From positions 1 to 33,604 of the forward strand of contig JABIZD010000170.1 in the NCBI GenBank assembly GCA_018666555.1: a stretch of 33,604 nucleotides of DNA. Reading direction: 5' to 3'. The notes beneath the pieces are model-generated. The model saw only the letters and a list, made by a program, of their open reading frames with translations. It was not told where the DNA came from and ran no database searches. The stretch is from Gammaproteobacteria bacterium. Lineage in GTDB: Bacteria; Pseudomonadota; Gammaproteobacteria; Pseudomonadales; Azotimanducaceae. A program made the translations under genes and the position numbers. How positions within the stretch are numbered: the first letter of the stretch is position 1; each line of letters starts with the position of its first letter. Shown in pieces: positions 3,664 through 19,451 of the stretch.

Positions 3664-4701
3664 ATGCCTCTAACTCAACCCCTGCGCCTGAAAGGTGCAC
3701 CTGGTTCGCCCTATACTCGCAAGATGCTGGCTTATATGCGCTATCGCCATATTAGTTATGAATTGCTTATCGGCAATCAGTCTGCTGAAAAGATGGGCTT
3801 GCCTACGCCAAAGGTTGACCTGTTGCCAACCTTTTATCTACCGAATGATCAAGGGGAAGTTGAGGCTGTTGTTGATTCTACACCACTGATTCGCCGCTTT
3901 GAGAGGGCCTTCTCAGGAAGAGAAGCGCTGCCGATGGACCCGGTACTAGGATTTATTAACTACCTAATCGAGGACTATGCTGACGAATGGTTGACCAAAT
4001 CGATGTTTCACTATCGCTGGTACTATGCTGCAGACATCAAGAAGGCTGGGGATATTCTGCCGCTCTGGCGAGGTCTGCAGATGGACGATGACCAGCATTT
4101 AAAGGCTGCTGAGTTCGTCGCAGGAAGGCAGATTTCTCGACTCTATGTAGTTGGTTCCAATGATCTGACAGCGCCGGTGATTGAGGCCAGCTATGTTCGT
4201 TTCCTGGGTATCATGAACCGCCTGATTATGCGCCAGCCGTATCTGTTTGGAGATCGACCTGCTTCTGCTGACTTTGGCATCTATGCTCAATTGACCCAGT
4301 TGGCGAAGTTCGATCCGACACCTATGTCGATCTGCTTAAACCAGGCTCCACGAGTGTTCGCCTGGACAGATGTTGTTGATGATCTCAGTGGTCAGATCTG
4401 TGCTGAAGACGGCTGGATGTCCAGGGATAGGATAAAAGAGGGTTTGGCTGATCTACTCGCTGAAATTGGTAAAGTTTATGCTCCAGCGTTGCTTGCCAAT
4501 GCTCATGCGCTGCAGTCAGGTGAGAAGCAAATGGAAACCACGATTGATGGCAAACCCTGGCAACAGCCAACGTTTGCTTACCAGGGCCGTTGTCTGCAAT
4601 GGATCAATGCGGAGTATCGGAAACTAGGCTCTGATGAGCAATCCTGGGTTGACGATATCCTGGCAGGGACAGGCTGCGAATTTCTGTTGGTGTCTAGCTA
4701 G
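3664..4701 (+). CDS. Long glutathione S-transferase family protein (paralogue 1)
   Basis: The N-terminal thioredoxin-like GST domain (about residues 5-85) opens with LRLKGAPGSPYTRKML, where Ser/Tyr lie at the usual glutathione-activating position. Helices containing HYRWYYA and a C-terminal GST domain with PYLFGDRPASADFGIYAQL follow. At 345 residues it is well over the usual 200-240, with about 100 extra residues after the C-terminal domain. The protein from 13248 has the same layout and shares HYRW, the PYL-G-x-P-DFG segment and a DPxPxSI stretch, so the two are paralogues. The gene is preceded by the shared inverted-repeat motif and is divergent from the dehalogenase unit. A cytosolic glutathione-dependent activity is likely; the substrate is unknown. 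Confidence 0.8.
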   Translation: MPLTQPLRLKGAPGSPYTRKMLAYMRYRHISYELLIGNQSAEKMGLPTPKVDLLPTFYLPNDQGEVEAVVDSTPLIRRFERAFSGREALPMDPVLGFINYLIEDYADEWLTKSMFHYRWYYAADIKKAGDILPLWRGLQMDDDQHLKAAEFVAGRQISRLYVVGSNDLTAPVIEASYVRFLGIMNRLIMRQPYLFGDRPASADFGIYAQLTQLAKFDPTPMSICLNQAPRVFAWTDVVDDLSGQICAEDGWMSRDRIKEGLADLLAEIGKVYAPALLANAHALQSGEKQMETTIDGKPWQQPTFAYQGRCLQWINAEYRKLGSDEQSWVDDILAGTGCEFLLVSS

Positions 4702-6612: not shown

Positions 6613-7458
6613 TCAACCCAGTTTGCTGAGTACCTGACAACGCTTCATTAACCGGCGCGCACTCTGGTTAAAATCATCGCGGCGATGTAGCACCCGGCGG
6701 TTATCCCAGATGATCAGATCGAAGGGCTGCCATTGTTGCTGCCAGACGTTTTCGGGTAAAGCGGCATAAGACCAGATCTCATCCAATAGTGCTTCGCTAT
6801 CGTCGAGTTCAAGTCCTGGTATGTAGGCCCATTCCCGGCGCCCCAAGTACAGCGCCTGTTTGCCAGTTTCAGGGTGGGCGGTAATGACGGGGTGCACTGA
6901 GCCAGGTGCGTCCCGAGGATCATCGAAGGCTTCAAAGCCGGGACGAAGTTTCCCAACACTGGTATGTGCAGCATTATGCTTGATGGACAGACCGCGTAGA
7001 CGAGCCAAGAGATCATCCGGGATTGCCATAAGAGCAGCATTTTGGTCAGCAAAATAAGTATCGCCACCTTTTTCAGGTATCTCGATGCCTAATAGAACGC
7101 TGGCCGGTGGCGGGTTATCGATGTAGGTCATATCGGAATGCCAACTGGCTTCGGCATTGCCGAGCCCGCCAATGGGTTTACCATCCTTGAGAATATTTGA
7201 GAGCTGGGTGACATAACGATTTTTGATCTTGGCCCGTTCTGATTCTGGCAGGCGGCCCATGGGAATTTCTTCCAGAGGACCAAATCGGGAGCTGAAGGCT
7301 TGCAGTTCATCTTCATTGATATGTTGCCTGCGTATGCGCAGTACGCCGTAGGTGAGCCAGGCTTCATAGACTCGATTGAACTCATCATTAGTGATTGACC
7401 TGACGTCGATGTCTGAAACCTCGGCTGCAAAGTTCAAACTTATGGGGTTGATATTCAT
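6613..7458 (-). CDS. TauD/TfdA-family Fe(II)/2-oxoglutarate dioxygenase
   Basis: The 281-residue cytosolic enzyme couples 2-oxoglutarate decarboxylation to substrate hydroxylation. The iron facial triad is visible: His107 and Asp109 in WHSDMTYI, and His258 in WDNRRVLHRRDDF. Arg268/Arg269 about 11 residues later is the expected 2-oxoglutarate anchor. GGDTYFADQ is also typical of the TauD branch. GGAAG lies just upstream of the ATG. The gene follows the selenoprotein by 25 bases on the same strand, so they are probably one transcript. Family members cleave taurine, alkyl sulfates or 2,4-D ethers. The sequence alone does not choose, although the nearby YeiH exporter would fit sulfite or sulfate release. 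Confidence 0.88.
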   Translation of the reverse strand: MNINPISLNFAAEVSDIDVRSITNDEFNRVYEAWLTYGVLRIRRQHINEDELQAFSSRFGPLEEIPMGRLPESERAKIKNRYVTQLSNILKDGKPIGGLGNAEASWHSDMTYIDNPPPASVLLGIEIPEKGGDTYFADQNAALMAIPDDLLARLRGLSIKHNAAHTSVGKLRPGFEAFDDPRDAPGSVHPVITAHPETGKQALYLGRREWAYIPGLELDDSEALLDEIWSYAALPENVWQQQWQPFDLIIWDNRRVLHRRDDFNQSARRLMKRCQVLSKLG

Positions 7459-7483: not shown

Positions 7484-8665
7484 TCATGTCAAAACTGTTC
7501 TTGGAACAATGATCCTGCTCATGTAGGACAGTTCGGCGTGAGCTGTAAACATTTTATTGAATTTGAGGATCGCAGTTCCCAGGGCGGTCTCGTGCCAGAA
7601 TAGCCTCTCTAACTGTTCCTGGTTGTAACGACCTGGTTGAGCAGTCAGGGCCTCCAGATAGAAAACCTTGGCATCTTCAATAGCGCTTTTGAACCATTTG
7701 AGTTCAGCGATGGGCAGGGTTTCATTGTCGAGCAGGGTACCGAGTTTCTCAATATTCTCAGTCATGGAATATCCGGACACGCCAACCAGGGAGCGGCCGG
7801 CTCGTCTGCGTTTACCCAGATCATGCCAGGGTACCAGGGTTTGCAATTCGGCACGCAACGCGGCATTCCAGGAATCGTTGTCTTCAGTGGGTTTGCTGAA
7901 GGACACCGGACAGGCGGGTGCATCATTAAGCCCTGCTGGCGGTGCATCCTCTGGAAAATCAGCCAGAACAGGACCGCTTGGAGCCCGTAACAGCTTCAGG
8001 GCCGCGTCAATCACGCGATGTTGAAATGCGGCATCGTCAGGTTTACCGAGAGGGCGACCGAGGGGAAAGCTTACCCAGAGTGTACGCGGAGGTTGCATAC
8101 TTTCAGCGTTCTCTCGCACCAGGCTGATACCTGTGGTCATAATGCCTTCTTTTTCGAGATAAAAGGAGAGCGCGCACACGGCGCGCGTGCAGTTGGGTCA
8201 CACAGGCGTTAAAAAAACGGCATCAACCTTATCTTGTTTTAATAGCCCTGCAACCTGCGATGCTGAGGTTACATAGGCTTCAGGGTTCAAACCGGCGCCC
8301 ATAAAACTATAGTGAATCTCAGCCAGGGAACCAATCTTGCCATCCGCTTCGAGTTCCCGAAATCGATCTATGGGAAAAACCAGGTTGACGTCTTCGGTGA
8401 ACCCGACCTTGTCGAAGTTGACTGAGCTGTGCGACATAACAAGGTTGTCGGCATCTTCACTTCCTGAAATCGGTCTGAAGGTGGAATCAATGAATTCAAA
8501 ACCAGGGGCATCACGGAAATGTAGTCCTGCCGTGGTAATTAAGGCTATGCGCAGTTCAGCGATTTCTCTATTAAGGTGGGTCCATACCATTGGGCCTAGT
8601 GGCGGCTGGACTTTTGACATAAGATGCTCGCGTTCGTACTTGGGGAGATCAATAAGTCTTACCAT
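7484..8665 (-). CDS. GrdB-like selenoprotein (reductase selenoprotein B family), UGA read as selenocysteine
   Basis: One 393-codon gene with an in-frame TGA at 8200-8198 (codon 156). Upstream of it (155 codons) the frame ends in DAVFLTPV. After the TGA the same frame continues without a break as PNCTRAVCALSFYLEKEGI and then 237 residues in all. Both halves match one family, glycine/sarcosine/betaine reductase selenoprotein B-like proteins: SHSSVNFDKVGFTEDVNLVFPIDR in front, and FPLGRPLGKPDDAAFQ and GPVLADFPEDAP behind. With Sec156 and Cys159 the active site is a UxxC redox pair. A SECIS-like hairpin follows the TGA. The only upstream start for the back half is a GTG inside that hairpin, which argues against two genes. 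No GrdA or GrdC partners are nearby, so this is a stand-alone homologue of unknown substrate, apparently co-transcribed with the TauD-type dioxygenase. Confidence 0.88.
8170..8186 (-). promoter_or_regulatory. Bacterial SECIS-like hairpin for selenocysteine insertion
   Basis: Counting the U of UGA as 1, bases 15-20 (GCGCGC) pair with 26-31 (GCGCGC). The loop is CGUGU, with G22 and U23 near its apex. In E. coli fdhF the critical loop GU is at 23-24, so stem position, loop size and GU placement nearly coincide. An alternative 6-bp stem (bases 11-16 with 22-27) is also possible. The element lies inside the coding sequence, as bacterial SECIS elements do. Confidence 0.75.
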
Positions 8666-8938: not shown

Positions 8939-9535
8939 ATGAGTGAAGTCAGAGCACTAAAATTAGACGGGCGGGTGGAACGCACTGCAGCGACACACGA
9001 AAAAATTCTCAGCATCACTCGTGAATTGATTCTGACGGGAAACATAGACCCTACCGCGCGCGAAATTGCTGAAGCAACAGCCATCACCACCAGAACGCTG
9101 TTTCGGCATTTTTCCGACATGGAGTCCCTGCACCGCAGCTTAATCGAAGATGCAGGAACAAAAGCTGCGGCTGTCATGGATGACCCCTTTCCCGATCAAA
9201 CAGCAAGCAGTTGGCGAGACCAGATGCAGATCGTTATTACAAGGCGTGTTCGGGTATTCGAGTCACTGCTGCCGCTTTATATTTCAACCATCTGGAGCCG
9301 GCACCGCGCATCGACTTCAGGATCTCAAAGGGATAGTGGCATAAAACGGCGAAGAAAAAGACTGATGGAAGTGCTACCCAGGGGAATAACACAGGATCAG
9401 ATATTATTTGAAGTGATTGATGGCGTACTCGGTATCGAATATTGGATTAGCTTGCGTCGAGATCAGAGACTCAGTGTCTCCAAGGCAACCAGAGTGCTAA
9501 GGCTCGCAGTGGAAAGGCTCACGGCACATGGGTAA
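8939..9535 (+). CDS. TetR/AcrR-family transcriptional regulator
   Basis: The 198-residue protein has a TetR-type DNA-binding helix-turn-helix at about residues 18-62. It contains REIAEATAITTRTLFRHFSDMESLHRSLIEDA, with the characteristic TLFRHF recognition helix. The remaining residues form the helical ligand and dimer domain, which does not reveal the ligand. A strong promoter with an embedded palindrome precedes it, so autorepression is likely. The divergent selenoprotein/dioxygenase unit shares the intergenic region and may be a second target. Its end overlaps the start of the exporter gene by 8 bases, so the regulator and exporter are translated from one message. Confidence 0.88.
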   Translation: MSEVRALKLDGRVERTAATHEKILSITRELILTGNIDPTAREIAEATAITTRTLFRHFSDMESLHRSLIEDAGTKAAAVMDDPFPDQTASSWRDQMQIVITRRVRVFESLLPLYISTIWSRHRASTSGSQRDSGIKRRRKRLMEVLPRGITQDQILFEVIDGVLGIEYWISLRRDQRLSVSKATRVLRLAVERLTAHG

Positions 9536-10774: not shown

Positions 10775-11466
10775 ATGGCCGGTCTGATTGTTTACGGTAC
10801 GCCCGTATCCCCATTTGTGCGGAAAGTTGAAGCCTTGCTAAGACATCAGAATGCTGCCTATGAGTTTAAAACATTAATATAATGGCCATGCCTGACTGGT
10901 ATGCGGAGATCAGCCCGGCAGGTAGGATTCCTGTGCTACGGGACAAGGCTATTGGAACTGAAGGGGTGGCGGGCACCATCGCAGATTCGTCAGCGATCTG
11001 TGCCTACCTGGAAAAGAAACTCTCTGCTGGTCTTTATGCAGATTCAGTATTTGATACCGGCCGAGCGGTGTGGCTGGAAGAATATGCTGACACGGAACTG
11101 GCGCAGCCGCTAGGCATGAAACTGTTTAGACCCATTATGTTTCCGCGGTTTGCCGGCAAGGAATCGGATCTCGAGACTGCACGACATATCTATCAGGAAG
11201 AGTTACCCAGACATTTTGATTACCTTGAAGATGCGCTCGCTGGTAATGAGTTTTTTGTTGGCAATCAATATTCGATTGCAGATATCGCAATTGCTGCTCA
11301 GTTCACCCAGTTGGATCTGGTTGTGGGTTTGCCGAATGCGATCCGTTGGCCGGCACTGGCCAGACATACCCAAGCTACCAAGCAGCGACCAGGATTTGTC
11401 GATAACCTGGCCGCCTGTTCGAAGATGCTGGGCCGGGTGATTCCGGAAAAAGTAGATTTGTCGTGA
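10775..11466 (+). pseudogene. Glutathione S-transferase split by a one-base frameshift
   Basis: The first 35 codons (10775-10882) encode a GST N-terminus with TPVSPFVRKVEALL, then stop at TAA (10880-10882). The rest continues in another frame from 10882, MAMPDWYAEISPAGRIPVLRD, through a complete GST C-terminal domain ending at 11466. Adding one A near 10876 would restore KTLNIMAMPDW, so a single-base deletion or a sequencing error is the simplest reading. The stop and the next ATG share a base (TAATG), so coupled reinitiation could still yield two pieces. An AGGAG-like GGAGA precedes the first ATG. Its end overlaps the dehalogenase start by 4 bases. Without the break it would be a normal-length GST of about 230 residues. 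Confidence 0.8.
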
Positions 11467-12500
11467 GTTACACCGTTTTTACGACAGAAGATGGGCGTGA
11501 TTTTGTCCGCACTCCAGATGAATGCTTCGATAACCTGCCTGACTTCCCTTATCTGCCGCATTATGTGGAAATTGATGGCTTGCGTATGCACTATGTGGAT
11601 GAAGGTCCCAAAGATGCTGAGGTGGTACTGTTGTTACACGGCCAGCCGGATTGGTCCTATCTGTATCGAAAAATGATCCCAGGCATTGTCCAGGCAGGGT
11701 ATCGTGTTATAGTGCCCGATATGATTGGCATGGGGCGCTCGGATAAGCCCACAGATATTCATACCCATACTGTTTATGGGCACGCTGCCTGGTGGCTTGA
11801 ATTGATCAACCAACTGGCGCTTCAGAACATTACCCTGTTTGGCCAGGACTGGGGCGGGTTTACCGGTCTGCAGGTGGTTGCGCATCACCCGGAATACTTC
11901 CGCCGAGTCCTAATCTCAAATAGCGGTCTATTCCTCATGCCTGAGCCGATTTTGAATGTCCCTCAGGGGATCAATCGTCAAGACTATCCGGTTGACCCGG
12001 ATGCGGAGATCCGGACCTTCGATGATTTTGTGGCTAACTGTGCAGCCAAGGGCCTTATCAAGGAAGACATGTCTGAATTTTTTCAGGCCTGGATGCTTTA
12101 TGCATTGACGGGCCCGGAATTAAAGGCCAGCGATAATTTGCGCAGAGACTTCGGTGGAATTGAACTGACAGATGATGAGGCGCGAGCCTATGATGCGCCG
12201 TTCCCTGATGAGGTATTCATGACCGGGATCAGAACGCTACCCAGTATGGGGTCGATGATCGATACTGATAAGAGTCTGGCTGCCTGGGAGGCCCTTAAAC
12301 AATTTGAAAAGCCATTTTTGACCGTGTTTGGCGAGTACGACCTGTTGGTAGGTTCGAAGAAGACGCAGGATGCATTGATTAATAATGTGCCCGGTGCAAA
12401 AGGTCTGCCTCATGACCGGATCCCGGCGGGGCACTTCATTCAGGAAACTCAGGGCGAAGAGTTGGCGAGGCGCCTGGTTAATTTTATGACTTCTGTATGA
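11463..12500 (+). CDS. Haloalkane dehalogenase-type alpha/beta hydrolase (copy 2)
   Basis: The 345-residue paralogue of the enzyme at 2827-1766 shares the N-terminal FxxLPDFPYLPHY segment and HGQPDWSYLYRKMIP. The oxyanion motif HGQP is at residues 59-62. The nucleophile is Asp129 in GQDWGG, with Trp130 beside it for halide binding. The acid is probably Asp293 in GEYDLL, and the base His324 in AGHFIQE. The GTG start overlaps the GST stop (GTGA), so translation is coupled to the GST. Pairing with glutathione transferases supports a role in handling halogenated or epoxide compounds. The true substrate cannot be read from sequence. Confidence 0.87.
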   Translation: MSYTVFTTEDGRDFVRTPDECFDNLPDFPYLPHYVEIDGLRMHYVDEGPKDAEVVLLLHGQPDWSYLYRKMIPGIVQAGYRVIVPDMIGMGRSDKPTDIHTHTVYGHAAWWLELINQLALQNITLFGQDWGGFTGLQVVAHHPEYFRRVLISNSGLFLMPEPILNVPQGINRQDYPVDPDAEIRTFDDFVANCAAKGLIKEDMSEFFQAWMLYALTGPELKASDNLRRDFGGIELTDDEARAYDAPFPDEVFMTGIRTLPSMGSMIDTDKSLAAWEALKQFEKPFLTVFGEYDLLVGSKKTQDALINNVPGAKGLPHDRIPAGHFIQETQGEELARRLVNFMTSV

Positions 12501-12571
12501 GCTAAAGGTAGTCTCAGCAGATCGCATCGCTGGTTTTGAAAAATGATATGAATATCAGGCAGGAAATCCCC

Positions 12572-13201
12572 ATGAAAAGACTTCACTTTTGGTTAATTGC
12601 GGCAGTTTTGTATGTTGCTTTCTTCAGTTGGTATACCAGTTTTGAAGGCCCAATGCGCGAGGATGAAATTAACAAAGTGTTACAACGGGTTGAGCAGAAT
12701 GGACGTTCAGAACAGTCTTTAGAGATACTAGAGCATTTTATGCGGACCGACACAGGCAATGACTTTATTATGGTCAACCTGCTGGACATGAATGAGTCGC
12801 CGCCTGAATTACCGGCCACTGGGCCAGGAGCCGATGCCATGCAATTAATTAATCATTATATGGAGCACATGTATCCAGCCCAGTTTAGACGCGCCAGCCA
12901 TCCAGTATTTTTTGGCAGGGCAGTGGCGGATGCCATGGATATTTCAGGAGTAGAAGGCGCTAACCATTGGGATCAGGGCGCGTTGTTTCGATACCGAAGT
13001 CGACGAGACATCATTGCCATTGCAACTAATCCAGCCTTTGATGAAAGACATGACTATAAAATGGCGGCCTTAACCAAGACAATTGCATTTCCGGTTGAGC
13101 CGGTACTTCATCCAGGGGATGCCAGGATAATCGTCGGCCTGCTGGTATTTTCAATTTTTTCATTGCTGGATCTGTTTATTTACAGACCAAGATCGCCGTG
13201 A
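12572..13201 (+). CDS. Bitopic membrane protein with a DUF1330-like alpha/beta domain
   Basis: The 209-residue product starts at ATG 12572, where AGGAAA (12561-12566) gives a sensible ribosome site; a longer reading from 12536 lacks one. A hydrophobic helix (about residues 4-20) is followed by a soluble part and a second helix near the C-terminus (IIVGLLVFSIFSLLDLFIY). The middle, from FIMVNLLDMNE through FFGRAVADAM to DQGALFRYRSRRDIIAIATNPAFDERHDYKMAALTKTIAFPV, resembles the dimeric alpha/beta-barrel (DUF1330/EthD-like) fold. The family match is by eye only. It sits within the GST-dehalogenase unit, so a related role is likely but unproven. Confidence 0.72.
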   Translation: MKRLHFWLIAAVLYVAFFSWYTSFEGPMREDEINKVLQRVEQNGRSEQSLEILEHFMRTDTGNDFIMVNLLDMNESPPELPATGPGADAMQLINHYMEHMYPAQFRRASHPVFFGRAVADAMDISGVEGANHWDQGALFRYRSRRDIIAIATNPAFDERHDYKMAALTKTIAFPVEPVLHPGDARIIVGLLVFSIFSLLDLFIYRPRSP

Positions 13202-13247
13202 TAGATAGCCCCCGAGGAATGACCCATTTTTAAATGAGATTGACAAA

Positions 13248-14366
13248 ATGAGTAACATAACCCTCTATGGTAGTTCTCTTTCTCTGTATACGGGTAGGGC
13301 TCGCAGTTATCTGATAAAAGCTGGCCTCGATTATAGGGAGGTCACGCCTGTTACCCCAAACTATCGTGACAACATAGTTGCCAGAGCGGGTGGACGCAGG
13401 GGCGTACCTACTATCGAAACTGCAGACGGTGAGGTCATCAGAGATGGTGTTGCCATCGTCGATTATTTTGAGCAAAACAGTGGGCACTTGTATTCACCGA
13501 AGACGCCCAGGCAGAAAATACTGAGCCTGCTATTTGATGTCATCGGTGCCGAAGGGTTACTTCGACCCGCGATGCATTATCGCTGGAATTTCCCGGAGCA
13601 TAATCTAGAGTTCCTGGCATTCCATTTTCAATCCATGGTGCCGCGGGGACCCAATCGAATTGAGCAGGCTGAGAAAGGAGCTAACGCGATGCGAGCAGCC
13701 TGTGCTGCATTCGGTGCGGTACCTGACACCTTTGAACTCGTAGAAACGCTCTATCTTGAATTACTGAAAAAATTAAACCACCACTTTTCTGACTACCCGT
13801 ACCTGTTGGGTGGTAAGCCTTGTGTGGGTGACTTTGGGATGATAGCGCCCTTTTTTGGTCATCTTGGTCGTGACCCTATGCCTCTGTCGATTATGCAGAC
13901 CCGAGCAGTTCGCCTGTTTAGATGGGTTGAAAGAATGAACCGACCAGAACCAGACGTAGGTGAATTCGAAACACAGGATGGCCAGTATCTGCCTTCTGAC
14001 GAAATTCCTGGTTCATTAATTGACGTACTCAAACATCTCGCAATCGATTTCATTCCTGAAACAATTGCAGCGTCGGATTGTATTAATGACTGGATTGATC
14101 AGCAGAAAGATCTCGCTCCCGGCACTGAAGTCATGCGCGGCGTAGGCATCGGTAGCTTTGAGGCCCGTGGTGTAAGGGTTAATGCCTTGGCACAACCTTT
14201 CCGGTTTTACCTGCTCAAACGGTTGCAGGACTACTACACGCAATTGGATAAGAAAGCACAAGTATCTGTCTCAGACATGCTTGCCTCATGCGATATGCTG
14301 GATGTCCTGGATATTAAATTATCGCGCGGTATTGAGCGTCATAACAACCTTGAGGTGTGGCGATAA
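13248..14366 (+). CDS. Long glutathione S-transferase family protein (paralogue 2)
   Basis: The 372-residue protein has an N-terminal GST thioredoxin-like domain (MSNITLYGSSLSLYTGRARSYL, and GGRRGVPTIETADG carrying the cis-Pro near residue 54). A helical domain contains AMHYRWNF and PYLLGGKPCVGDFGMIAPF, and there is a C-terminal extension of about 120 residues. It shares this architecture with the GST at 3664-4701, including the HYRW element. It is the last gene of the GST-dehalogenase-membrane protein unit, 46 bases after its neighbour. The extension contains GVGIGSFEARGVRVNALAQPFRFYLLKRLQDYY, with no domain I recognise. Substrate unknown. Confidence 0.8.
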   Translation: MSNITLYGSSLSLYTGRARSYLIKAGLDYREVTPVTPNYRDNIVARAGGRRGVPTIETADGEVIRDGVAIVDYFEQNSGHLYSPKTPRQKILSLLFDVIGAEGLLRPAMHYRWNFPEHNLEFLAFHFQSMVPRGPNRIEQAEKGANAMRAACAAFGAVPDTFELVETLYLELLKKLNHHFSDYPYLLGGKPCVGDFGMIAPFFGHLGRDPMPLSIMQTRAVRLFRWVERMNRPEPDVGEFETQDGQYLPSDEIPGSLIDVLKHLAIDFIPETIAASDCINDWIDQQKDLAPGTEVMRGVGIGSFEARGVRVNALAQPFRFYLLKRLQDYYTQLDKKAQVSVSDMLASCDMLDVLDIKLSRGIERHNNLEVWR

Positions 14367-16845: not shown

Positions 16846-17436
16846 GTGAAAAATCACAGTGTGAATATTAAACAAGCACAGCGGTTTCTGGGTAAGGTGA
16901 ATGTGCAGCCCCTGAAAGAAGCCATCATTGCACTGGAACCCCGGGCCTGGCAGGAACAGTTAATTCGTCAACAAAGTTATGAAGTGCACAAAGACACCGA
17001 ATCAATCGTACTGTTGTTTTGCGATGAAGCCTGGCCGGAAGGAGATGTTCATCGTGAATCTGGCTGGGAGCATCTGGCGGTTGCCGCGATGCCACTCGTT
17101 AATGAGATAATTGAGACCTATTATACCAAAGGTGGCATTGTAATCAGGGCCATGGCTGCCAGGTTAGTTGCGGGTGGGCGCATTAACCCGCATATTGATG
17201 CTCTTAAATCCTTTCATATGAGTCATCGTATCCACGTACCAATCACCTCTAATCCAGCGGTGCGGTTTATGATTGAGGGTAAGCCATACCCGTTCGAAGT
17301 AGGTAAAGCCTATGAAATCAATAATCAGAAAAAGCATAGTGTCCTAAATATGGGAAAAGAAGATCGAATTTCCTTTATTTTTGACTATGTGCCACCTGAT
17401 AAAAACAAACCACCTATGTCCAGTGCTTACGAATGA
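16846..17436 (+). CDS. Aspartyl/asparaginyl beta-hydroxylase domain protein
   Basis: A 196-residue Fe(II)/2-oxoglutarate oxygenase of the Asp/Asn beta-hydroxylase family. Iron ligands are His116 and Asp118 in INPHIDAL and His164 in NNQKKHSVLNMG; Arg174 in EDRISFIFDY is the likely 2-oxoglutarate contact. HRIHVPI between them is also a family hallmark. It starts at a GTG with no good ribosome site; a second GTG at 16861 is equally possible. Its last bases overlap the TPR-sulfotransferase start (ATGA), so the two proteins are translated together. The substrate may be an Asp/Asn side chain of a protein or a small molecule. No signal peptide, so it is cytosolic. Confidence 0.87.
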   Translation: MKNHSVNIKQAQRFLGKVNVQPLKEAIIALEPRAWQEQLIRQQSYEVHKDTESIVLLFCDEAWPEGDVHRESGWEHLAVAAMPLVNEIIETYYTKGGIVIRAMAARLVAGGRINPHIDALKSFHMSHRIHVPITSNPAVRFMIEGKPYPFEVGKAYEINNQKKHSVLNMGKEDRISFIFDYVPPDKNKPPMSSAYE

Positions 17437-19451
17437 GTGAATTGACGAATAGCAAGGATAAAAGCATCGCACAAGCCATTGGTTTTATGCGCGCGAATCG
17501 CCCGCTGCGAACAGAAGAGTTGTGCCGTGATTATTTAAGGCAGAACCCCGGCTGTACTGAACATCTTCGTTTGCTCGGTCACGCCTTGATGAAACAGAAG
17601 CGGCTGGCAGAGGCCGAGGAAAACTTGCGTTTCGCCCTATCATTGTCGCCTGACTACCCTCAGTTGCACGAAGACCTGGGCAGCGTGCTGGCCATGCAAT
17701 CACGGTTTGATGATGCGATACCGGAGCTCGAGCACGCGATCCGACTTCAACCTGCTTTGCCCCTGGCTCGAAAAAAATTAGGACAGGCTCTGGCAGCAGC
17801 GGGGCGAGGTAAGGAAGCTGACGAAGAAATCCAATCCTATATTGATAGTGACCCTGCTAGAAAAGCGATTATAGAGGCGGCAGAACTACTCAATAATGAG
17901 CAGACCGAAGAAGCGATGCAAGCCTTCCAGGCCATACTGAAAAGTAACCCTGAAGATGTTAATGCCATGCGATATCTGGCTCGAGCTTATAGGCAAGCCA
18001 GCAAGAATCTGCAGGATGCTGAGGCACTATTGCGTAATGCGACCCAGCTGGCGCCAAGTTTTGTTGCAGCCTGGTTTGACTTGGCATCGCTCTTAAACCT
18101 TCGAGACAAAAAGATGGAGTCTATTGCTGCTTATCAGAAGGTAGTTCAGTTGGATCCGGAAAACGCCGCTGGCTGGGGAGGTCTGGGCAGCGCTTATGCC
18201 GTCGCTATGTATCCTGAAAAAAGTGCTGAAGCTTATGCTAAATCGATACAACTCAAACCGGATGTCCCAAATGTATTAATGGGCCAAGCGCATGTCCTTA
18301 AAACCCTGGGGGATCAGGCTGCGGCTCTGCTGGCCTATCGCGCCGCAATCAAAATAAAACCAGATTTCGGCGAAGTTTACTGGAGCATGGCAAACCTAAA
18401 AATTTTCCACTTTGAGGACCAGGAATTAACTGCCATGTTGCAGCAGTTGGAACAGGATAATCTCTCGGAAAGTGAAGAAATCCATTTCCGGTTTGCCCTC
18501 GGTAAAGCCTTTGAGGACAAGAAGGATTATGACCAGGCATGGCACTTCTACCACACAGGTAATCAGAAACAGCGGGCGATGGTTGATCATTTTCCCCTGG
18601 AAATGGAAATTCGCCAGCAGCAGTTGAGAGAGGTTTTTAGTGAGCGTTTTATGCGAGAAAGACCTGATGTTGGTCACGATGCCGGCGACCCAATTCTTAT
18701 CGTCGGCTTGCCTCGTTCCGGTTCAACGCTAATTGAACAGATTCTAGCCAGTCATAGCCAGGTGGAGGGAACATCTGAGTTGCCTGTGCTGGGTAAAATT
18801 GCTGAGTCGATAGGCCAACACCGAATAGACGGGGTGCAGTATCCGCTGGCAGCCAGGGAATTGCGGAACCGGGACTGGCGAGCCTATGGATTACAATATA
18901 TTGAGGAAACCCGGCGACATAGGGTCACTAACAAACCTTTTTTTACGGATAAACTACCCAATAACTTCCCACAGATAGGTCTGCTAAACCTTATATTGCC
19001 GAATGCGAAAATAATTAATGCTCGCCGTCACCCGCTTGATAGTTGTCTGGGGAATTACAAGCAATTATTTAGCAGAGGGCAAAATTTCACCTACGATATG
19101 CTCGATCTTGCACATTACTATCAACAATACCATACCATGATGAAGCACTGGCATGAGGTGCTCCCAGGCAAGGTTCTGGATGTGCATTATGAAGATACAG
19201 TGTACGACCTTGAAGGGCAGGTACGTCGGATTCTGGATTATTGTGGCTTACCGTTCGAACAGAGCTGTATCGACTTTCACCAGACGGATCGAGCTGTTAA
19301 GACAGCGAGTTCCGAACAGGTCAGGCAACCTATATACAAAGAGGCGTTGGGTACCTGGCGGCTGTATGAAAAGCACCTTGATCTATGGCATGAACAGCTT
19401 GATGATATTGTCGGAGAATTGCCAATGATCACGAGAAATGCAGGGTTATAA
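17433..19451 (+). CDS. TPR-repeat sulfotransferase
   Basis: A 672-residue cytosolic protein. Residues about 20-345 are tandem tetratricopeptide repeats (for example LRLLGHALMKQKRLAEAEENLRFALSLSPDYP, and AAYQKVVQLDPENAAGWGGLGSAY). The C-terminal half is a PAPS-dependent sulfotransferase. Its 5'-phosphosulfate loop is GLPRSGST at residues 425-432, followed by TSELPVL, and a 3'-phosphate segment is present as INARRHPLDSCLGNYKQLF. The layout matches TPR-sulfotransferase family proteins related to tyrosylprotein sulfotransferases, in which the TPR part would hold a protein or peptide substrate. It overlaps the beta-hydroxylase by 4 bases and converges on the receptor/DUF4915 pair with a 15-base gap. 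The substrate is not known. Confidence 0.9.
   Translation: MSELTNSKDKSIAQAIGFMRANRPLRTEELCRDYLRQNPGCTEHLRLLGHALMKQKRLAEAEENLRFALSLSPDYPQLHEDLGSVLAMQSRFDDAIPELEHAIRLQPALPLARKKLGQALAAAGRGKEADEEIQSYIDSDPARKAIIEAAELLNNEQTEEAMQAFQAILKSNPEDVNAMRYLARAYRQASKNLQDAEALLRNATQLAPSFVAAWFDLASLLNLRDKKMESIAAYQKVVQLDPENAAGWGGLGSAYAVAMYPEKSAEAYAKSIQLKPDVPNVLMGQAHVLKTLGDQAAALLAYRAAIKIKPDFGEVYWSMANLKIFHFEDQELTAMLQQLEQDNLSESEEIHFRFALGKAFEDKKDYDQAWHFYHTGNQKQRAMVDHFPLEMEIRQQQLREVFSERFMRERPDVGHDAGDPILIVGLPRSGSTLIEQILASHSQVEGTSELPVLGKIAESIGQHRIDGVQYPLAARELRNRDWRAYGLQYIEETRRHRVTNKPFFTDKLPNNFPQIGLLNLILPNAKIINARRHPLDSCLGNYKQLFSRGQNFTYDMLDLAHYYQQYHTMMKHWHEVLPGKVLDVHYEDTVYDLEGQVRRILDYCGLPFEQSCIDFHQTDRAVKTASSEQVRQPIYKEALGTWRLYEKHLDLWHEQLDDIVGELPMITRNAGL

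Follow-up and report, generated by a model that had tools for sequence, protein, structure and literature searches.

The window, a stretch of 33,604 nucleotides from a gammaproteobacterial genome, carries two minus-strand reading frames in the same phase with a single TGA between them, which raises the questions of whether this TGA is read as selenocysteine (Sec) and what the resulting protein would do. An earlier note on this DNA had read the two frames as one gene, and the sequence, the frame, the position of the TGA and the product length are all as it claimed: when TGA 8200-8198 is taken as sense, minus-strand positions 8665-7484 form a single protein of 393 residues (7484..8665; long type of the PrdB/GrdB superfamily) that ends at a terminal TGA (7484-7486). 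Without readthrough the locus yields frames of 155 and 231 residues, and gene callers that stop at UGA cut the gene in two, as had been predicted. Reading the internal TGA (8198..8200, minus strand) as Sec156 produces a UPNC motif, confirming the proposed UxxC pair of U156 and the presumed resolving Cys159. Homologs span both halves as a single protein, in agreement with the assignment of both to one family; the Pfam GRDB model (PF07355; 42.8 bits, gathering score 22) matches residues 33-153 only, and the downstream frame alone has no Pfam match.

The TGA is aligned across relatives. A single-protein scan of GTDB genomes returned two metagenome-assembled genomes labelled Enhydrobacter aerosaccus and one Dehalococcoidia genome of the same kind, whose proteins are 38-46% identical to the window protein and have the TGA in the corresponding alignment column. 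When 299 genomes of the phylum were searched with the single sequence, two gave a match, the window genome (G000) and G289; a profile search within the order matched 18 of 293 genomes. In the alignment at position 156 that the earlier note had suggested, 33 of the 35 superfamily sequences, the window included, place TGA at the motif; one homolog (L023) has Cys, and one sequence (L043) ends before the site. Within the same bacterial family, 92 of 206 genomes match the long type at E <= 1e-50, a count in which at least two genomes, G477 and G653, show a short-type match only and G732 a partial match only; the matches listed in that search carry TGA, save two that end before the site, and a few contain further stops. 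From this search (60 fetched regions), the window, L001-L003 and L057-L060 we assembled 68 long-type regions that represent 55 genomes, and every one of them has UPxC with TGA. The recurrence of the TGA in 54 other genomes excludes the sequencing error that the note had raised as a concern. One long-type copy, L129 (G757 C2:772180-773391), has an in-frame TAG besides the TGA and looks broken. The window genome holds five TGA-containing genes of the PrdB/GrdB type (on contigs C29, C60, C173, C182 and C23), and the four beyond the window gene (C60, C173, C182 and C23; L061-L064) are all of the short type. In the C60 paralog (L024) the motif is UPLD and the second Cys is missing, so that not every member of the superfamily has the UxxC pair.

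Substitution patterns extend this picture beyond the codon itself. Against L102, the closest of five relatives compared (85% identity before the TGA, 79% after), dN is 0.11 and dS 1.01 over the 155 codons before the TGA, and dN is 0.13 and dS 0.65 over the 237 codons after it; in the four other pairs dS is saturated before the TGA, and in two of them (L057, L058) also after it. Judged by these rates, the part of the gene after the TGA is under purifying selection.

A SECIS-like hairpin with GU at positions 22-23, which the earlier note had described, indeed follows the TGA (8170..8186, minus strand; nt 15-31, where the T of TGA is nt 1) and has the sequence GCGCGC-CGUGU-GCGCGC, with a CGUGU loop that supplies G22 and U23. 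We scored the stem as six pairs (nt 15-20 with 26-31) in 33 sequences, leaving out the truncated L043 and the Cys homolog L023, and found 97.0% of 198 cells paired, changes on both sides in all six stem pairs (55 such cells), a covariation score that none of 500 shuffles reached, and G22 in every stem (33/33), whereas slid versions of the stem pair at 9-43% (at most 42.9%). Across the 68 long-type regions 375 of 408 cells are paired, with all six pairs in 43 regions and G22 in 65, and the weakest pairs are the outer two. The two strands of the window together hold 1350 TGAs, of which a single one, that of Sec156, is followed by the combination of six pairs and G22, and the same test at the terminal TGA of the gene found no such hairpin. 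Part of the pairing appears to follow from coding constraint, because the Cys homolog L023 keeps five of the six pairs, but has A at position 22, and the hairpin by itself does not settle the matter. Folding of single sequences gives weak z-scores (0.3 to -3.7; window copy -1.7), and the Rfam model SECIS_1, which we take to be of the eukaryotic type, gave no match in the genome, but its control was equally silent.

The window genome (4.17 Mb in 217 contigs, 97.6% complete) encodes the full set of Sec genes that the earlier note had named for checking: selA and selB lie side by side (C152:44153-47382) and score above cut-off, as does selD, within a 733-residue frame (C128:5181-6080, L025), and one tRNA-Sec (selC), above cut-off, has the anticodon UCA. 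A frame of this length would be compatible with an Ndh-SelD fusion of the kind noted in PMC2398784. That the locus encodes a genuine selenoprotein is, on the sequence evidence, virtually certain.

The GrdB-like label that the earlier note gave this protein stands at the level of the superfamily, but the nearest family is PrdB. The best NCBIfam match is PrdB TIGR04483 (123.5 bits against a cut-off of 300; homologous over residues 13-227), and the GrdB-type models score 52-60 bits, with residues 33-228 matching their C-terminal half; these matches identify the window protein as a PrdB/GrdB-superfamily selenoprotein, nearest PrdB. In a tree of 34 sequences, from which the truncated L043 was left out, the eight long proteins group together (93/89), and both the short paralogs and the GrdB pair of G502, which belongs to the order of the window genome, fall outside. 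The long clade carries a C-terminal extension of about 155 residues, largely absent from the short paralogs (7487..7960, minus strand; from about residue 236 on), which is mostly helical in the predicted structure and gave no match in a Pfam search. Far from the UxxC motif, residues such as T45, A46, H49, P98, R101, P192-R194, W197, D211 and Q215 are invariant in the eight aligned long proteins. The AlphaFold model, built from four sequences, is weak (mean pLDDT 62.7) and places Sec156 in its better part (blocks 71-85), after a strand (149-153) and ahead of a helix (157-172); a Foldseek search with this model returned nothing at E <= 0.001, and a PDB sequence search with the selenoprotein returned only two chance matches (E 0.79 and 0.95). 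Because the model is weak and Foldseek found no match, the predicted active-site geometry is without structural support.

A TauD/TfdA-type Fe(II)/2-oxoglutarate dioxygenase gene (6613..7458, minus strand) begins 25 nt after the selenoprotein stop; its product matches PF02668 over the full length (190.2 bits), has its HxD metal motif as HSD within WHSDMTY and scores below the taurine dioxygenase cut-off (136 against 313 bits), and among solved proteins it comes closest to RdpA variants, a putative 2,4-D dioxygenase and TauD. A divergent TetR-family regulator gene (8939..9535, plus strand) lies on the other side. Both neighbours had been claimed from the window alone, and both recur beyond it: in a tree of 67 long-type rows, from which L129 was left out for its in-frame TAG, the window subclade comprises 28 rows, 25 of which have the TauD-type gene directly downstream on the same strand and 11 of which have the TetR gene. 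The 24 relative dioxygenases are 53-83% identical to the window copy, some being cut by contig ends, and at L110 the intergenic gap is distorted because the selenoprotein end was placed too far downstream. Every one of the 22 proteins in the dioxygenase cluster has the HxD motif, including three whose genes do not adjoin the selenoprotein gene. The subclade rows without the dioxygenase (L114, L117 and L121) form one branch with a common upstream gene, PNPOx-like in L114, and in the sister rows L126 and L127 the place directly upstream is taken by an MFS-type gene. Relatives of the TetR protein occur in 10 of the 67 fetched regions besides the window, all inside the subclade and so kept in part of it, lying divergently upstream in four and the window and downstream of TauD in six.

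Comparison with control regions sets TauD and TetR apart from the other neighbours. Using tblastn with the window proteins against the 67 long-type regions other than the window and 20 controls, we obtained TauD matches in 25/67 against 0/20 and TetR matches in 10/67 against 0/20. The controls were a small set, chosen by coordinate in genomes that had yielded long-type regions as well, and for some of these genomes the long-type copies that we fetched lack TauD. The window TauD protein gave no tblastn match in the L129 region and matched one of eight short-type regions. Outside the subclade the dioxygenase query matched L142 only, in a distant and upstream position. A different PF02668 gene was found by Pfam outside the subclade (L059:8756-9907), and a second PF02668 gene occurs at L057 and L058 within it; TauD-type genes as a class are thus not rare here, and the conserved part is the close, adjacent one. 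We consider it very likely that the selenoprotein and the dioxygenase are functionally paired in the window subclade, and since long-type relatives outside it have no such gene next door, the dioxygenase is not obligatory for the selenoenzyme.

The remaining neighbours do not allow a substrate to be read, because GST (6/67 regions against 1/20 controls), haloalkane dehalogenase (6/67 against 0/20) and sulfatase (7/67 against 2/20) matches are not clearly enriched in the tblastn comparison, and we dropped a halogen- or sulfur-specific role based on them. Around the locus the window contains a haloalkane dehalogenase gene (above the PRK00870 cut-off), a related alpha/beta hydrolase gene and three GST-type genes (1766-2827, 3664-4701 and 10882-14366), and an Asp/Asn-hydroxylase-like gene that overlaps the start of a TPR-sulfotransferase gene (16846-19451). 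In G529 (L060:3047-8008), two GST-type genes and a gene for an alpha/beta hydrolase related to the window haloalkane dehalogenase come after the long-type selenoprotein gene, on its strand. Two genomes have a short-type PrdB-like selenoprotein gene close to an O-acetylhomoserine sulfhydrylase-like gene (L062:3711-5021 and L068:7862-9157; 88% identical), a hint of a sulfur role; among 46 loci searched, most of them short, no such neighbour was found elsewhere, bar shorter copies of L062 and L068.

Two of the classical reductase partner types were sought across whole genomes. Neither PF09338 (GrdE/PrdA type), which presumably covers PrdA, nor PF04723 (GrdA) was found in the window genome or in G331, G457 and G529, and the positive control G502 returned two of each. 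That genome holds, at C1:2602727-2656787 (L044, L051, L069, L070, L181 and L182), two GrdB-like genes with UGTC, two PF09338 genes and two GrdA genes. The earlier remark that no GrdA lies at hand thus extends to the whole genome, and the expectation that the reaction is not classical glycine reduction gains from the missing GrdA and GrdE/PrdA-type subunits and from the conserved dioxygenase coupling. That the gene lies beside the dioxygenase gene in close relatives suggests a pathway not yet described, as opposed to anaerobic amino-acid reduction of the classical kind.

The explanation that we prefer overall, and consider probable, is a stand-alone Sec oxidoreductase of the long clade that works in one pathway with the dioxygenase. 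UGA codon 156 would be decoded as Sec in the cell by SelA, SelB, SelD and tRNA-Sec, aided by the downstream stem-loop, to give a PrdB/GrdB-type oxidoreductase that would stand alone in a genome where neither GrdA nor the pyruvoyl-forming partner (GrdE/PrdA type) was found. The selenoprotein and dioxygenase genes are probably co-transcribed, would act in one pathway, and are probably controlled by the neighbouring TetR protein. In glycine and D-proline reductases, Sec chemistry breaks the alpha C-N bond of a substrate amine that a carbonyl (pyruvoyl) group has activated. Since the pyruvoyl subunit was not found here, the substrate probably needs no Schiff base, the step described in PMC10838667. 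The Sec156 selenolate might attack a carbon that bears a leaving group (amine, thiol, halide or similar) beside a carbonyl, forming a seleno-ether that Cys159 would resolve into product and a selenenyl-sulfide, which cellular thiols would re-reduce; the dioxygenase would perform an oxidative step on the precursor or product in the same compound series. We propose a reductive removal of a leaving group because PMC10838667 proposes one for fluoroacetate, with a GrdB-like selenoprotein acting on the C-F bond. Reductive carbon-heteroatom cleavage by Sec156 and Cys159 is a tentative proposal that we hold to be quite possible; somewhat more speculative is a catabolic module in which the selenoenzyme strips a heteroatom without the pyruvoyl/GrdA apparatus and the TauD-type dioxygenase carries out the paired oxidation.

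Three other readings of the locus have to be set against this one. The two frames of ordinary gene calling are what a pseudogene or a sequencing error with a chance stop codon would give, yet the aligned TGAs of all 68 long-type regions and the purifying selection after the TGA rule this candidate out, and the sel machinery is complete; the probability of this reading is negligible. A component of D-proline reductase or another classical Stickland reductase would be in keeping with the ranking of the NCBIfam matches, PrdB first and the GrdB-type models after it, and with the proline reductase label given to marine relatives (PMC1088965; PMC2398784). That reading fails on several counts: the PrdB score is far below cut-off, the partner subunits were not found in a search whose control worked, the protein has an extra C-terminal part and its gene is coupled to that of an oxygen-dependent enzyme. 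D-proline reductase function makes little sense without the partner subunit and beside such an enzyme. We rejected D-proline and glycine reductase on the subunits not found and the PrdB score, are confident that the protein is neither, and regard a Stickland role as highly improbable.

The third reading accepts a genuine selenoprotein but makes it a thioredoxin-like thiol/selenol redox protein with UxxC, which would keep the dioxygenase, or some other partner, active by recycling or protecting it and would cleave no substrate bond. UPNC is a dithiol-type redox motif, the pyruvoyl partner was not found, and 2-oxoglutarate dioxygenases are open to oxidative inactivation, all of which this reading would accommodate; invariant residues far from the motif, which suggest a substrate pocket in the long proteins, and the long-type relatives outside the subclade, most of which have the selenoprotein without this dioxygenase, count against it, and we think it rather unlikely. 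If the catabolic module proposed above is correct, it would represent a reductive-oxidative selenium pathway in oxygen-using bacteria and would show what some of the marine proteins that carry the proline reductase label actually do. The conserved selenoprotein-dioxygenase pair provides a testable handle on the function of PrdB-labelled proteins.

PrdB-like UxxC selenoproteins from the sea have been known since 2005, with 42 PrdB-labelled genes in the Sargasso Sea (PMC1088965) and 235 sequences in the GOS data, which rank among the most abundant selenoproteins of seawater surveys (PMC2398784); PrdB is also listed in the reviews PMC13188914 and PMC9312934. In the open-licence PMC literature, as far as its accessible text goes, we found no description of the long clade or of a selenoprotein-TauD pair, and the long form and the pairing, found in no paper of that literature, are apparently new to this extent.

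Set beside known systems, the window protein is closest to PrdB, the Sec subunit of D-proline reductase (TIGR04483; PF07355 superfamily), with which it shares homology over residues 13-227 and the UxxC motif as given in PMC13188914; it differs in reaching only 123.5 of 300 bits, in its additional C-terminal residues (about 155), and in being paired with a dioxygenase gene in a genome where no PF09338 (PrdA-type) partner was found. The marine PrdB-labelled proteins, as described, share its family label and motif (PMC1088965; PMC2398784); the descriptions consulted give neither a gene partner nor a long form. With GrdB of glycine, sarcosine and betaine reductases it has a Sec active site in common, and its residues 33-228 match the C-terminal half of the GrdB models, but its motif is UPxC where the G502 GrdB pair has UGTC, and no GrdA or GrdE-type subunit was found in its genome. 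Its partner protein resembles the TauD/TfdA/RdpA dioxygenases in its full-length PF02668 match and HxD motif, and differs from taurine dioxygenase in scoring below the cut-off (136/313 bits). In proposed chemistry the closest parallel is the FarB/FarE fluoroacetate reductase of Synergistota, a GrdB-like selenoprotein for which carbon-halogen cleavage by Sec attack has been proposed, the link of farACEB to C-F reduction resting on transcriptomics and comparative genomics (PMC10838667). According to that account, farACEB of these anaerobes also encodes FarE, a transporter and a radical SAM protein, whereas the window has a TauD-type gene instead.
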